This document shows, piece after piece, positions 20,270-29,400 of a stretch of DNA of 33,876 nt. This DNA is from Erysipelotrichaceae bacterium (GTDB taxonomy: Bacteria > Bacillota_I > Bacilli_A > RFN20 > CAG-826). Position 1 is the first letter of the stretch. Each line of letters begins with the position of its first letter. Position numbers and translations under genes: made by a program. The notes under the pieces were generated by a model, which was not told the origin of the DNA, made no database searches, and saw only the letters and a program-made list of their open reading frames with translations. The stretch covers positions 1-33,876 of the forward strand of contig JAAYSH010000036.1 of NCBI GenBank assembly GCA_012518415.1, in the 5' to 3' direction.

Positions 20270-21271
20270 CTAACGAAGACCCTTATCATAAGGGATACCG
20301 ACAGCTTTTGGTGCCCGAGATTTCTTCGATGTAAAGACAAGAACAACCATCGTTGCGATATATGGAAGCATATCGAAGAACCACTTAATTGTTACCCCTT
20401 CAAAGATTGGGAACACGGTATAGCGGTTACCAATCGAGCGGGTAACACCAAAGAAAACTGCAGCCCATAAGATTTTATTTGGTTTCCACTGCCCAAAGAT
20501 TAAGACAGCAATTGCAAGGAAACCGTAGCCGTGGACATCGCCTTGCCATGATACACCGGTAGATTCAAATACATAAATCAATCCACCTAAACCCGCGAGT
20601 GCACCAGATAAGATAACACCTAAATAGCGATATTTATAAACATTAACACCAACTGAATCCACGGCTTGAGGGTGTTCACCACACGCACTTAATCTTAAGC
20701 CGAATCTTGTTTTATAAATTACAAAATACACGATTGCCCAAATAATGAAGCCGATAATTGTCATAATCGTAATATTTTGAAATAGAAGTGGGCCAATATA
20801 TGGTATTCGCCCTAAATAAGGAATTTGGTTATAAGTTACGCCGTCGACGACATCTTTAATGAAAAATGGTTCGGGGTTAAACTGAACGTTTTTAACTTGT
20901 CTTGTCGACATCGCAATATAAACTGTAAGTGCTGGAGCAAGCATATTAAGCGCCGTTCCGGCAATTGTTTGATCGGACTTCATATTAATTGCGGAAAAGG
21001 CAAGAAGTAGTGAAAACAGTGCTCCTGCAGCAGCAGCAATAACTCCGCAAATTAAATAAAGTAAATGCGGATTAATTGTTGATCCAGCTTCTTGGACACC
21101 GCGAAGTAAGATCGCCCCAACAAAAGCACCAAAAACCATCGTTCCTTCCATCGAGATGTTAACGACACCACTTTTTTCCGAAAACATCGCGCCAAGGGCA
21201 ACGATTAAAAGCGGAATCATAAATATGAAGGAACCATTTAAAACATAAATAATACTATTAATAATTTCCAT
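20270..21271 (-). CDS. nupQ: ABC transporter permease, nucleoside type (NupQ-like)
   Basis: Second membrane subunit of a BMP-linked importer of the BPD_transp_2 class. The 333 residues contain about eight hydrophobic segments and family features such as FSEKSGVVNISMEGTM near the N-terminus and GLRLSACGEHPQAVDSVGV, then YGFLAIAVLIFGQW. The context (lipoprotein, double ATPase, two permeases) matches the B. subtilis guanosine importer NupNOPQ and related purine nucleoside importers. The substrate is inferred from that layout. Its ATG overlaps the preceding stop by one base (TAATG). It is the last gene of the unit and ends before a bidirectional terminator. Confidence 0.88.
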   Translation of the reverse strand: MEIINSIIYVLNGSFIFMIPLLIVALGAMFSEKSGVVNISMEGTMVFGAFVGAILLRGVQEAGSTINPHLLYLICGVIAAAAGALFSLLLAFSAINMKSDQTIAGTALNMLAPALTVYIAMSTRQVKNVQFNPEPFFIKDVVDGVTYNQIPYLGRIPYIGPLLFQNITIMTIIGFIIWAIVYFVIYKTRFGLRLSACGEHPQAVDSVGVNVYKYRYLGVILSGALAGLGGLIYVFESTGVSWQGDVHGYGFLAIAVLIFGQWKPNKILWAAVFFGVTRSIGNRYTVFPIFEGVTIKWFFDMLPYIATMVVLVFTSKKSRAPKAVGIPYDKGLR

Positions 21272-22560
21272 TATTTGCTTCCTCCTTCATCAAAATAATC
21301 ACTAGCTTCGCTCTCCTCCACGTCTGGAAGATCACTCTCAAAGTCACCATCTCCAGTTTCAATAGCTAATCTAATGGCCTTTTTTCTTTGTCTCCTTTTT
21401 CTAAATCCAATTACATAATTACCAATTTGGGCCGAGAATGCCGAGAAGTAAATAATAACTGCAATAATAATATTAGCTAATTCTTCCTTAAATTCTGGTT
21501 GAATGTAGTAGCCACCACGATTTAAGAATGTAATAAAGAAGGTGGAGAAGATTGTCCCAATTGGATGAGAGTTACCTAAAAGTGCAACAACAATACCATT
21601 AAATCCAGCAGATTGGATGACGTTATCAGGTAAGTACTCAATTCCTGTTCCAACCGAGTCCTTTTTCAAAATAAAGAAGGCACCACCAAGCCCGCATAAT
21701 AAACCTGAGATTGCCATCGTTAAGATAATTGATTTCTTTTCGTTAATACCGCTATATCTTGATGCGTCACGGTTTGCCCCCGCGGCTTTTAGTTCAAAGC
21801 CAAACGTTGTTTTAGAAATAATAATCCACATAATAATTGCGGTAGCAATAGCAATAAAGAAGGTTGCGTCAACGTTTGAACCAGGAAACACTTTTTCTAA
21901 GCCAAGCGTGTTTGTCATCGCGTTTAAATTAATCGTTTGCGCCCTGCCACGTGCACTATTATATAAGGAGGCTGAGTTAACAATTACCGAGTCAACCATA
22001 TACATCCCAATATAGTTAAACATAATCGAAGTAATAACTTCGTTAATTCTAAATGTTGCCTTAAAGAAGCCGGGGAAAAAGCCCCAAATTAAGCCTCCTA
22101 GCGCACCAGCTAAAATAGCAACAATCCATTGGAAGTTACCAAGTGGTCCACCAAACATACCAACTAAATAAGCGAAGAACAGGCCAACAGTATATTGACC
22201 CGAGGCACCGATATTAAATAAACCGGCTTTAAATGATAAACCAACACCAAGACCACACATTAATAGGGGTGGAACTAGTTCAAGCCAGCGGCCTAAACCA
22301 CGTCTACCCGTGGTAGTAATCCATTGACCAAGTAAGATGGGAAACTTACTAAATGCGACATCTGGTCTTGTGGCAATCATAATAATTAAACCAAGAATTA
22401 AACCAATAACAACAGCAATTACGCTTGAAAATATTGATTGAAACCATGATTTTTGATAAAAAGGAGTACGTTTTGCTGTAGTTTCTCCGTTCTCTTCATT
22501 TGAAGGAGGTGGTGAAACGTTATTTGGTTTTTCAACGATTACTGTTTCATTACTACTCAT
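21271..22560 (-). CDS. nupP: ABC transporter permease, nucleoside type (NupP-like)
   Basis: First membrane subunit of the importer. The 429 residues begin with a hydrophilic, low-complexity tail (about 1-35, rich in Asn, Glu and Pro), followed by about nine to ten hydrophobic segments. Family features include GLSFKAGLFNIGASGQYTVG, FKATFRINEVITSIMFNYI and GFELKAAGANRDASRYSGI, the coupling region. The C-terminus is a further charged, acidic tail (about 390-429, DGDFESDLPDVEESEASD). Both tails are likely cytoplasmic or disordered. It overlaps the ATPase gene by 8 bases and NupQ by one, so synthesis is probably coupled. Confidence 0.88.
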   Translation of the reverse strand: MSSNETVIVEKPNNVSPPPSNEENGETTAKRTPFYQKSWFQSIFSSVIAVVIGLILGLIIMIATRPDVAFSKFPILLGQWITTTGRRGLGRWLELVPPLLMCGLGVGLSFKAGLFNIGASGQYTVGLFFAYLVGMFGGPLGNFQWIVAILAGALGGLIWGFFPGFFKATFRINEVITSIMFNYIGMYMVDSVIVNSASLYNSARGRAQTINLNAMTNTLGLEKVFPGSNVDATFFIAIATAIIMWIIISKTTFGFELKAAGANRDASRYSGINEKKSIILTMAISGLLCGLGGAFFILKKDSVGTGIEYLPDNVIQSAGFNGIVVALLGNSHPIGTIFSTFFITFLNRGGYYIQPEFKEELANIIIAVIIYFSAFSAQIGNYVIGFRKRRQRKKAIRLAIETGDGDFESDLPDVEESEASDYFDEGGSK

Positions 22561-24346
22561 GATTCTTTCCTCCTTTTTTATTCGTTACCGGTATATCTCT
22601 TAGCGCATTTTTTAGCGATTTATATACATTACTTGTTTGTTTTGATTTGAAGTTGACATTTACTTCAATTCGACCTTTGGGTGTTTTCACTTCCTCTTCA
22701 TCATATATTTCATCATATGCTGGTAAAGCTGATTTTGTTTTCTCATAGACGGGACGAATATTATCTAAAGTAGGTCGGTCCTTTCTTCCGCCTGCCATAT
22801 ATATGCCGATTTCTTCAACAGTCGTCTTTTTTGGATCAAGTTCAGCAACAATTTCACCCTCATACATAACTAAGATGCGGTCACTCATTGTCATAATTTC
22901 ATCAAGTTCAAGTGATATCATTAAGACTGCTTTACCAAAATCGCGTTGCCGGACGATTTCATTGTGAATGTATTCAATTGCACCAACATCAAGTCCGCGA
23001 ACTAATTGAACGGCAAGTAATACATTCGTATCTGTTGAGGCTTCTCGTGCAATAATTGCTTTTTGCTGATTACCCCCAGACATTGATCTAGTTTTCGTCA
23101 TCCCGCCTTGTCCAGCGCGAATATCAAACTTTTCGATTAATTCATTCCCATAAGTTGTAATATTTTTTTCACGAATAAAGCCCATCCGTTTAAAGCGTGG
23201 TTCATGCATTTGCTTTAGGGCTAAGTTATAAGAAAGGGGGAAGTCAAGAACAAGTCCAAATTTATGTCTATCTTCAGGAACATGAGCAAGCCCGTGTTCA
23301 TTTCTAAACCGAATTGATTTTTTCGTTACGTCAATTCCGTTTAAAATAATCCGTCCGCTATCAACAGGAATTAACCCATTAATCGCCATTGCAAGTTCAC
23401 TTTGTCCATTACCATCAATCCCAGCAATTCCGACAATTTCACCCTCACGGACAGATAAACTTAAGTTGTTAACAACTTCCTTGCCTGTATAGCGGTTTTT
23501 AATAACTAAATCTTGGACATCAAGGACGGTTTTACCTAAGATTGGATCAGACTTTTCAATATCCAAACTAACATCACGGCCAACCATCATCCGTGATAAA
23601 TCTTCCACGGTGCTATCTTTAACATCAACAGTACCGATATATTTACCTTTACGTAAGACAGTAACACGGTCAGCGATTGCCATAATTTCATTTAGTTTAT
23701 GTGTAATAAATAGCAGTGATTTACCTTCATCGGCAAGACCACGCATAATCCCCATTAACTCGGTAATTTCTTGCGGTGTTAAAACTGCCGTTGGCTCATC
23801 AAATATTAAAATATCGTTTTCACGATATAACATTTTCAAAATTTCGGTTCTTTGTTGCATCCCGATTGTAACATCTTCAATTATTGCATCAGGATCAACT
23901 TCTAGTCCATATGCTTTGGATAGTTCAATGAGTTTTTTTCTTGCTTCTTTCCGGTTAATAACCCCATTTTTAAGCGGCTCATCACCTAAAATAATATTGT
24001 CAAGTACAGTAAAAGTATCGACAAGTTTAAAGTGTTGGTGGACCATCCCAATACCTAAGTCATTAGCATCATTAGGATCATTAATTTGCACTAATTGACC
24101 ATCTTTATAAATTTCACCTTCTTCAGGTTGATATAACCCAAACAAGACACTCATTAAAGTTGATTTTCCTGCACCATTTTCACCTAGGAGTGCGTGAATT
24201 TCACCCCTTTTTAATGTTAAAGAAACGTTATCATTCGCGATAACGCCAGGAAATACTTTAGTTATATTCCGCATCTCAATAATATAATCATTAGAAGCAG
24301 AAGTTGGTTGGTAATTTTCTTTACTTGTTACTAATTTTTCAACCAT
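22553..24346 (-). CDS. nupO: ABC transporter ATPase with two nucleotide-binding domains (NupO-like)
   Basis: Powers the importer. Domain 1 (about 20-260) has Walker A GENGAGKS at 55-62, a signature region read as IGMQQRTEIL, and Walker B ILIFDEPTAVLTP. Domain 2 (about 270-530) has the degenerate Walker A GIDGNGQSE, signature MSGGNQQKAI and LLAVQLVRGLDVGAI; the degenerate second site is usual in this group, although homologues mostly have AQPTRGLD there. At 597 residues it exceeds the common 500-515 because of a tail of about 65 residues, acidic (YDEIYDEEEV) and then basic. A terminator lies upstream, between it and the lipoprotein gene. Confidence 0.92.
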   Translation of the reverse strand: MVEKLVTSKENYQPTSASNDYIIEMRNITKVFPGVIANDNVSLTLKRGEIHALLGENGAGKSTLMSVLFGLYQPEEGEIYKDGQLVQINDPNDANDLGIGMVHQHFKLVDTFTVLDNIILGDEPLKNGVINRKEARKKLIELSKAYGLEVDPDAIIEDVTIGMQQRTEILKMLYRENDILIFDEPTAVLTPQEITELMGIMRGLADEGKSLLFITHKLNEIMAIADRVTVLRKGKYIGTVDVKDSTVEDLSRMMVGRDVSLDIEKSDPILGKTVLDVQDLVIKNRYTGKEVVNNLSLSVREGEIVGIAGIDGNGQSELAMAINGLIPVDSGRIILNGIDVTKKSIRFRNEHGLAHVPEDRHKFGLVLDFPLSYNLALKQMHEPRFKRMGFIREKNITTYGNELIEKFDIRAGQGGMTKTRSMSGGNQQKAIIAREASTDTNVLLAVQLVRGLDVGAIEYIHNEIVRQRDFGKAVLMISLELDEIMTMSDRILVMYEGEIVAELDPKKTTVEEIGIYMAGGRKDRPTLDNIRPVYEKTKSALPAYDEIYDEEEVKTPKGRIEVNVNFKSKQTSNVYKSLKNALRDIPVTNKKGGKNHE

Positions 24347-24417: not shown

Positions 24418-25553
24418 TTAGCCTTCGTAAATTACTGTAACTTTGGCTAATGAACCTTCTCCGCTTCCGCCAAGGGTGTTTGCGGCATCTTCCTGAGGTG
24501 TTTCTAAGTAATCAGCTGGTAAGCGATCAATAATAGTAACACTCTCATCGGCGAGTTTGCCATAAATTTCATTGTATTCTTCAATTGAGAATGATTCAAA
24601 TCTCCATGATTCTTCAGCGGTTGGTAAGCCAACACCATCATTTGAAGCGTCTAAAACGGTAGTTTTTCCGCCTTCCCATTTATGACCTTCAAGTTCATAG
24701 TGTTGTTTAAGTGCGAGTTCAACAGATGCTGCTAAACCTTTAGTCGCACTTGTCATAACTGTTTCGTGGTCGCCTGCTTGGTCAACGTCGACACCGACGA
24801 CTTTACCATTTCTTTGTCCGGCAGCAGCCATGACTGATTGTCCGACTGAACCACCACATGCAAAGATAACAGTAGTACCCGCAACATACCATGAGTCAGC
24901 TTTCGCTCTTGCTTCTGGAGTAGCATCGAAGCCACCAGTATAGTGGTATTTAACTTCGATAGCATTATCTTCTAGTCCAAGTTCAACTGCGGCATCATGA
25001 GCGCCAACTAAATAGCCTAACCCGAAACGACGAACGGCTGGAACTGACATTCCACCCATATATCCAAGTTTACGGTGACCATCTTTAACGACACCATACC
25101 CTGCTAAGTAACCAGATTGCTCCTCAGCATAAAGAATCGAAGCAGTATTAGGTGCAGTGTAGTATTCATCAGTTTCTGGGTTTTTTGGAGCTGCGTCAAG
25201 TAAAATAAAGCGAACTTCAGGGTGCTTAATTTGCATTTCATGAACTGCAACTTCAAATAAGAAACCTGGTGTAACAACAATTGTAGCGCCTTGATCAATT
25301 GCTAATTCGATTGACTCAATATACGCTGCATTTGTACCTTCACTTGGCTTGTAATATTGATGGTCGACTCGGTATTGTTCATTAAATGCTAAGACACCTT
25401 CCCATGATCCTTGGTTAAATGATTTATCATCAATGTCGCCAAGGTCAGTAATAAGTGCGACTCTACCATCTAATTCAACTTGAGAACCGCCACCACAGCC
25501 AGCTAGCATACCAACAGTTAGTAATAAGGCAGCTAACGTTCTAATTTTTTCAT
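24418..25553 (-). CDS. nupN: BMP family nucleoside-binding lipoprotein, frameshifted at its start
   Basis: Extracellular substrate-binding lipoprotein of the importer (PnrA/TmpC/BMP family). The body reads VALITDLGDIDDKSFNQGSWEG, QGATIVVTPGFL and FACGGSVGQSVM, typical of purine nucleoside receptors. The lipobox LAGC with GGGS follows a hydrophobic signal (TLAALLLTVGM). GGAGG (25564-25568) is placed before ATG 25551-25553, but from that ATG the frame stops after six codons. Adding one A to the A6 run at 25545-25550 would join it to the signal peptide as MKKIRTLAALL, giving 378 residues. As written, the body frame begins only at ATG 25509, without an export signal. Sequencing error, natural lesion and slippage are all possible. 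Confidence 0.85.
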
Positions 25554-25562
25554 AAAATACTT

Positions 25563-25620
25563 TCCTCCTTTTTGTAATTATGAAAATTATTTGATTTTAC
25601 ACATATAAACTGCAGGAGGA
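25563..25620 (-). promoter_or_regulatory. anti-Shine-Dalgarno pairing in the Nup leader
   Basis: UCCUCCU (25620-25614) is an exact seven-base complement to AGGAGGA (25569-25563), the ribosome binding site of the lipoprotein gene. Its first bases also belong to the 3' arm of P3 and its last to P1, so hiding the binding site and forming P1/P3 exclude each other. Confidence 0.5.
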
Positions 25621-25711
25621 TGAATTAATAACTAATTTCATCATCCAAAATCGCGAGATAATTTATCTCTCTTTGCAATTATTGGCTGCTAATTTATAAT
25701 GTATGTTCATC
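25599..25711 (-). promoter_or_regulatory. structured leader of the Nup operon, candidate riboswitch-like element
   Basis: Minus-strand RNA. P1 pairs 25704-25693 with 25609-25599 (11 pairs, one bulged U) and continues as GCAG (25689-25686) with CUGC (25615-25612). Inside, P2 (25685-25645) is a long hairpin of 10 pairs plus GAGAUA/UAUCUC, with a five-base internal loop; P3 (25642-25619) pairs GAUGAA with UUCAUC and continues UUA/UAA. This is a three-way junction. I do not see the conserved bases of the purine, TPP or preQ1 classes. All pairing was done by eye in AT-rich sequence. Confidence 0.5.
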
Positions 25712-25717
25712 AATTTA

Positions 25718-25746
25718 ATAATAATGTTACAGACTAAAATAATCAA
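25718..25746 (-). promoter_or_regulatory. Nup operon promoter
   Basis: Minus strand TTGATT (25746-25741), 17 bases, TATTAT (25723-25718). Transcription would start near 25711, giving a leader of about 155 bases. A perfect palindrome TGTTTAAACA (25776-25785) lies about 30 bases upstream. Confidence 0.65.
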
Positions 25747-25861
25747 CCTTATTTAAAGAACTGGTAGAGTTTAATTGTTTAAACATTAGAATTTAACATG
25801 TAATTGTTTGTTTTTATATATAAATATAAGATATTAATTAAAATTTATAATTGTAAAGAAT
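25747..25861. other. AT-rich spacer between rplT terminator and Nup promoter
   Basis: Apart from the palindrome TGTTTAAACA at 25776-25785, which could be an operator, I see no gene, repeat or stable hairpin here. Confidence 0.4.
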
Positions 25862-25900
25862 AAAAAAAACTTACCTTAATGGTAAGTTGTTTTTTTTAAT
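25862..25900 (-). terminator. terminator of infC-rpmI-rplT
   Basis: AACTTACC (25868-25875) and GGTAAGTT (25881-25888) form an eight-pair stem with a five-base loop. On the minus strand it runs into T8; the opposite strand also has a T run. Confidence 0.88.
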
Positions 25901-25923
25901 TTTTGGCTTAGCTAAATCAAGTC

Positions 25924-26292
25924 CTATTTTGCTTGTTTCGCAATTGCATCTTTGCTTGTTTTAATTAAACTTGCAAATGTTTGATCATCATGAATTGCAA
26001 TTTCACTAAGCATTTTTCGGTTAATTTCAACGTTTGCTAACCGTAAACCATACATAAACTGACTATAGCTCATATCATGGTTACGTGAAGCAGCATTAAT
26101 CCGCTTAATCCATAATTTACGGAAGTCACGTTTAACGAGTCTGCGGTGAATGTATGCGTATTGAAGTGAACGCATAACTTGCTCTTTAGCAGTCCGATAA
26201 AGGAGCTTTTTTGATCCAAAATAACCTTTGGCTTGTTTTAATACTTTTTTACGACGTGCTCTTGTTTGAACACTACCTTTTACTCTTGCCAT
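25924..26292 (-). CDS. rplT: 50S ribosomal protein L20
   Basis: Binds 23S rRNA early in large-subunit assembly. The 122 residues start [19 protein letters not shown] and keep the basic N-terminal extension and the globular part ([19 protein letters not shown], then [12 protein letters not shown]). It ends with a few more residues than the common 118. It is the last gene of the infC-rpmI-rplT unit, 12 bases after rpmI. In Bacillota its product represses the operon through the leader upstream of infC, where a matching attenuator is seen here. Confidence 0.97.
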
Positions 26293-29182: not shown

Positions 29183-29400
29183 AAAAAAGCGTCCGCTAGG
29201 ACGCCAATTGACGCGGTACCACCTTGCTTTAGAATAAAACTATTCTACTCTTTAATTCGCGATAACGGGCGAAACCGCTTAACTTTTGCTTAAGTGCTCC
29301 GAAGTAGTAATTTACTAAGCGTTCTAGAAATCTTTCACCCGCATTTCCTCGCTTTAAGAACGTGATTTAGTAAACCATATCTTCATCTAAGCATTGTTTT
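29183..29400 (-). promoter_or_regulatory. T-box leader of thrS, specifier ACU (Thr)
   Basis: Minus-strand RNA. Stem I pairs GAAG with CUUC at the base, UUUACUAA with UUAGUAAA and ACGUUCU with AGAACG above it. The 3' loop between the lower stems reads UUACUA, presenting ACU (29308-29306) followed by A. The apex carries GGUGAAAG, as in the leuS leader. The T-box core AAGGUGGUACCGCG lies at 29225-29212. Antiterminator: AGG, bulge UGGUACC, GCGUC/GGCGU, CCU. Terminator: GCGUCC/GGACGC (29204-29189) followed by U6. I see no good promoter directly upstream, so read-through from degV is possible. Confidence 0.9.

Follow-up and report, generated by a model that had tools for sequence, protein, structure and literature searches.

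The leader examined here lies on the minus strand of a 33,876-nt stretch of Erysipelotrichaceae DNA (contig JAAYSH010000036.1; hereafter the window), upstream of an operon in which bmp is followed by genes for an ABC ATPase and two permeases. The original prediction had placed it ahead of a nucleoside importer, and we found that the first gene product is indeed PnrA-like. The bmp open frame extends upstream to about 25596 on the minus strand. The promoter named in that prediction was also present and puts the predicted transcript start near 25711 (minus strand). Since a terminator lies upstream and the leader has this candidate promoter of its own, it probably represents an independent transcript start. 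The locus comprises, in window coordinates:

20270-21271, minus strand: importer permease 2 (PF02653)
21271-22560, minus strand: importer permease 1 (PF02653)
22553-24346, minus strand: importer ABC ATPase
24418-25509, minus strand: bmp ORF, a PnrA/Bmp-like lipoprotein, the substrate-binding part of the importer (Pfam PF02608, Bmp; E = 3.8e-40)
25718-25746, minus strand: best promoter candidate, TTGATT-17-TATTAT (9 of 12 consensus matches; identified by consensus match alone)
25868-25888, both directions: predicted two-way intrinsic terminator between rplT and the importer operon

The region 25554-25711 had been proposed, with no strand named, to fold into a P1 stem enclosing hairpins P2 and P3. 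Such a fold was obtained on the minus strand, and the predicted stems are listed below together with the elements of the start region.

25686-25704, minus strand: P1, 5′ strand, including GCAG (predicted fold)
25645-25685, minus strand: P2, a long hairpin with an internal loop (predicted fold)
25619-25642, minus strand: P3 hairpin (predicted fold)
25599-25615, minus strand: P1, 3′ strand, including CUGC (predicted fold)
25614-25620, minus strand: anti-Shine-Dalgarno (anti-SD) UCCUCCU, fully complementary to the Shine-Dalgarno (SD) sequence; it runs from the end of P3 through J3-1 into the inner end of P1
25578-25586, minus strand: anti-start segment, with UUUUCAUAA within it, whose predicted partner is UUAUGAAAA in the start-codon region; found in 1% of shuffled leaders
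25563-25569, minus strand: SD sequence AGGAGGA, read from the sequence
25551-25553, minus strand: start codon ATG, well spaced from the SD; translation in its own frame gives MKKLER-stop
25693-25698, minus strand: alternative -10 box TATAAA within P1, read off the sequence; poor -35 (TTATTA)

P1 consisted of 17 bp (6 + 7 + 4) interrupted by two bulged bases, and GCAG/CUGC made up its four innermost pairs; pair probabilities in P1-P3 were mostly 0.7-1.0. Few bases of the junction were left unpaired, with 0 nt in J1-2, 2 nt (AU) in J2-3 and 3 nt in J3-1. Fold significance was judged against dinucleotide shuffles. On the minus strand, 25554-25711 had a minimum free energy of -31.3 kcal/mol (z = -3.11), a value reached by 3 of 200 shuffles, and the plus strand was unremarkable (z = -0.95). 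The trimmed segment 25586-25711, whose boundaries were tuned within a region chosen because of its folding, reached -29.8 kcal/mol on the minus strand (z = -4.46), with none of 200 shuffles as stable, and a 106-nt leader core gave a z of about -4.0, a value equaled by 1 of 800 shuffles. When the whole window was tiled, z ≤ -4.0 was seen in 4 of 551 tiles of 126 nt, which places the leader in about the top 1%, and z ≤ -3 in 4.7% of 158-nt tiles; the other tiles scoring as well as the leader were mostly coding. The z of -4.46 (0/200), taken with the 4 of 551 tiles, suggests that the fold is more than chance. The comparison with shuffled sequence proposed in the original prediction thus came out in favor of structure, and on this computational evidence the predicted three-way junction is confirmed as a real structure that folds better than shuffles.

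A feature absent from the original prediction is the sequence UCCUCCU (25620-25614), a perfect 7-nt complement of the SD sequence AGGAGGA (25569-25563). It is made up of two bases of P3, three of J3-1 and two of P1. Among 5000 dinucleotide-shuffled leaders, the exact 7-nt word occurred in a fraction of 0.0004 (0.04%) and at least 6 nt of it in 0.0034, figures that apply to an element sought only once the fold had been seen. Because the anti-SD spans P3, J3-1 and P1, the three-way fold and an anti-SD:SD helix are mutually exclusive; computationally, then, the putative expression platform excludes the aptamer-like fold, as in a riboswitch. For a transcript beginning at 25711, the three-way fold was calculated at -35.8 kcal/mol vs. 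-29.0 kcal/mol for the alternative, and was therefore favored by 6.8 kcal/mol with no ligand; in it the SD was predicted to be about 99-100% unpaired. Pairing of UUUUCAUAA with the start-codon region was predicted to place the SD in a loop. A segment like UUUUCAUAA, 6-11 nt in length, was seen in the majority of the closest orthologous leaders and may be a terminator U-tract.

The ATG at 25553-25551 is one base out of frame with the signal peptide of the lipoprotein, EKIRTLAALLLTVGMLAGC. The same-genus orthologue, a protein with 68% identity, starts MKKIRKIASISLV in frame, so the A-run that follows the ATG has a one-base discrepancy in this assembly. This could reflect slippage, a genuine change of frame or an error in the sequence.

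The alternative -10 box would allow a hypothetical second start, from a weaker promoter, near 25690-25685, deleting most of P1. In an RNA modeled to begin near 25690, the anti-SD:SD helix was populated at 48-99%, varying with the 3′ end. The leader shortened in this way folded only modestly below shuffles (z = -1.61).

We then considered the purine riboswitch, with which the leader had been said to share its general topology, and found that the P1-P2-P3 three-way junction is indeed common to both. The ligand contacts of this class are U22, U51 and C74, and known variants of RF00167 include xanthine-II, guanine-II and 2′-dG riboswitches (PMC9295807). The original prediction held that the conserved bases of the class are absent, and inspection of the joining regions of the fold agreed, the contact bases U22, U51 and C74 being absent from the leader. 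It had also raised the possibility of a divergent purine riboswitch, which our searches contradicted. RF00167 was silent across 25480-25930 even at E ≤ 10; gathering-score matches to it were absent from the window, and the whole genome gave none either. The leader matched no Rfam family: at gathering score, Rfam cis-regulatory families gave no match on it, the sole match in the window being a T-box at 29194-29398, and sub-threshold snoRNA matches on the leader were to eukaryotic families and were set aside as chance. The T-box (minus strand, 96.6 bits) precedes the threonyl-tRNA synthetase gene and is ordinary.

Purine riboswitches were found in 38 of 114 relatives and were not detected in the host genome or its genus mate. 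Of the 57 orthologous loci examined, 20, in relatives of the same order, carried purine-like aptamers ahead of bmp, so RNA control of bmp is common in the order. From an alignment of these 20 aptamers we built a covariance model, R1. The aligned stems covary (62 two-sided cells vs. 21.5 in shuffles), sliding the pairing partners destroyed the pairing, and R1 recovered 20/20 of its own members. Run on the window leader with filters off, its best score was 4.2 bits, on the wrong strand. With Rfam and R1 silent, the signature bases missing and the junction nearly devoid of unpaired bases, the leader was rejected as a purine riboswitch.

Several of the orthologous loci deserve separate mention. 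Purine-like aptamers at L065 (2645-2722, minus strand), L066 (1233-1311, plus strand) and L067 (2668-2745, minus strand), all ahead of bmp, were missed by Rfam at E ≤ 1. They carry C at the position of the ligand-contact U51 (UUCCAG, not UUUCUAC) and a J3-1 of GGGCUAC, and by analogy are candidates for a changed specificity, which might be for nucleosides. In L048, L050, L052, L053, L055 and L056, purine-like aptamers about 150-260 bases before bmp, unreported by Rfam at gathering score, have a changed J2-3 (UCUCUAG, UAUCUAA, UAUCUAG), and most are then followed by terminators. Those of L042 (2691-2760, minus strand) and L046 (2648-2718, minus strand) have a canonical J2-3 (GUUUCUACC) and a P3 that, at about 2-3 remaining pairs, is not long enough for the usual loop-loop contact.

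Other leaders of bmp orthologues showed resemblances among themselves. L036 and L038, from two genera, have similar leaders (z = 4.7) about 180 bases before bmp, in which a 5′-end AAGUCGC can pair with GCGAUU directly before the U-tract; these are a possible separate leader RNA family. A resemblance between P2 of the window leader (CCAAUAAUUGCAAAGAG/CUCGCGAUUUUGG) and P1 of L036 (z = 2.9) was dropped as unproven. Upstream of bmp in L040, L041, L063 and L064, which belong to one genus (g34), a GGCUA-containing hairpin is shared (e.g., UUUCUUAAUCGGCUAUUAAGAAA). Against shuffles, two of these four leaders folded markedly better (z = -3.8 and -2.7); an alignment of the four yielded no consensus fold.

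A search for the leader itself at the DNA level in 113 relatives returned, besides itself, only short A/T-rich or SD-region matches. A single-sequence covariance model run against 57 orthologous loci and 39 genomes, including one of the same genus, gave weak matches (best 23.1 bits) that we took as noise. The leader of the same-genus orthologue showed no sequence similarity (z = 0.9), had no anti-SD and folded differently. Across the orthologous leaders of the family, fold z ranged from -0.04 to -3.8, and neither the anti-SD nor a common aptamer motif was found in them. A common motif sought among the seven closest orthologous leaders was likewise not found, except for the segment U4-6-CA(U), the complement of AUGAAAAAA, which could be a terminator U-tract or part of a start-codon hairpin. 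These missing homologues are weak evidence against a widespread class and none against a narrow one.

Taken as a whole, the results suggest that the leader is probably a lineage-specific regulatory element, with a regulatory role plausible and ligand sensing unproven. In the specific form that we tentatively prefer, at somewhat under an even chance, it is a cis-acting mRNA leader controlling the translation of bmp. With P1 and P3 closed, the anti-SD (25614-25620) would be tied up and the SD free, which would constitute the ON state; with P1 unformed or opened, the anti-SD would pair with the SD over 7 bp, turning translation OFF. Computation supplied the fold, the perfect complementarity of the anti-SD to the SD, the incompatibility of the fold with that pairing and the energies; we infer that the leader may switch between these states in the cell, driven possibly by a metabolite, by the choice of start site or by effects of translation or RNase. 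Because the three-way fold is favored by 6.8 kcal/mol, the OFF state would barely be populated unaided. With the closed form already so strongly favored, a ligand that merely stabilized it would change little, and a classical ON riboswitch is thus not the natural reading; in these models a ligand-driven ON switch lacks energetic support. A better fit would be an effector opening P1, an effect during transcription or a choice of start site.

The same energies bear on a simpler account, possible though unlikely, in which a constitutive structured leader keeps the ribosome-binding site clear or stabilizes the mRNA and senses nothing. The 6.8-kcal/mol lead of the ON fold and its unpaired SD are what such a leader would show, and conservation is not visible even within the genus, where some would be expected of a sensor that has a ligand pocket; a perfect anti-SD at the junction is nevertheless improbable by chance and would be pointless if nothing switched. 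That it precedes a nucleoside importer, couples its junction to an anti-SD, and belongs to a genome in which no purine riboswitch was detected while relatives use purine-like ones for bmp, has led us to consider a new riboswitch class whose ligand is probably a nucleoside or nucleobase. We regard this as doubtful, as a second example was not found in the relatives searched, junction strands of 0, 2 and 3 unpaired bases leave little room for the usual pocket, and the energies do not look bistable. Given how stable the closed junction is on its own, such a ligand would need either to take effect during transcription or to favor the open state, turning the importer off. A very narrow class, in which the tight anti-SD-coupled junction senses a nucleoside or nucleobase and has replaced the purine-like aptamers of relatives, is a shade more doubtful still.

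Chance folding of AT-rich sequence, leaving a leader without structural function, is also quite unlikely in our view. The frequency of comparable tiles (4-5% of 158-nt tiles at z ≤ -3, 4/551 of 126-nt tiles at z ≤ -4), the original choice of the region for its folding and the conservation not seen all speak for it, but it requires luck in both the fold (0/200) and the anti-SD (0.0004) within one leader of interest. Divergent membership of the purine class is highly improbable: the three-stem topology and type of gene are alike, and the class does occur upstream of bmp in relatives, yet RF00167 at E 10 and R1 with filters off were both silent and the signature bases of J1-2, J2-3 and J3-1 are missing. 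If the leader is regulatory, as we prefer, one nucleoside importer would, inside a single order, have exchanged control by purine-like riboswitches for control by structured leaders unrelated to them, and P1, the anti-SD and the SD would make up a small, directly testable construct. If it is not, it provides a clean example that a striking fold ahead of a plausible gene, without homologues, does not equal a riboswitch.

Like RF00167, the leader has a P1 enclosing two hairpins ahead of a purine-related gene, and in relatives RF00167-like aptamers stand ahead of bmp itself; unlike RF00167, it is without joining bases of the UAUA, UUUCUAC and GACUAU types, and its joining strands are almost absent. 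In translational ON riboswitches of the adenine add type, formation of P1 excludes sequestration of the SD and the anti-SD is itself sequestered. The predicted leader resembles these in that P1 formation and SD sequestration are mutually exclusive, and differs in that its closed state is favored by 6.8 kcal/mol in a ligand-free prediction in which a pocket is not apparent. In the pyrC type of E. coli, SD sequestration depends on the transcription start site, with starts 1-3 nt apart. A shift of start would likewise decide SD masking in the modeled leader, although here the starts would be about 20 nt apart, not 1-3, and the second promoter is weak and hypothetical.
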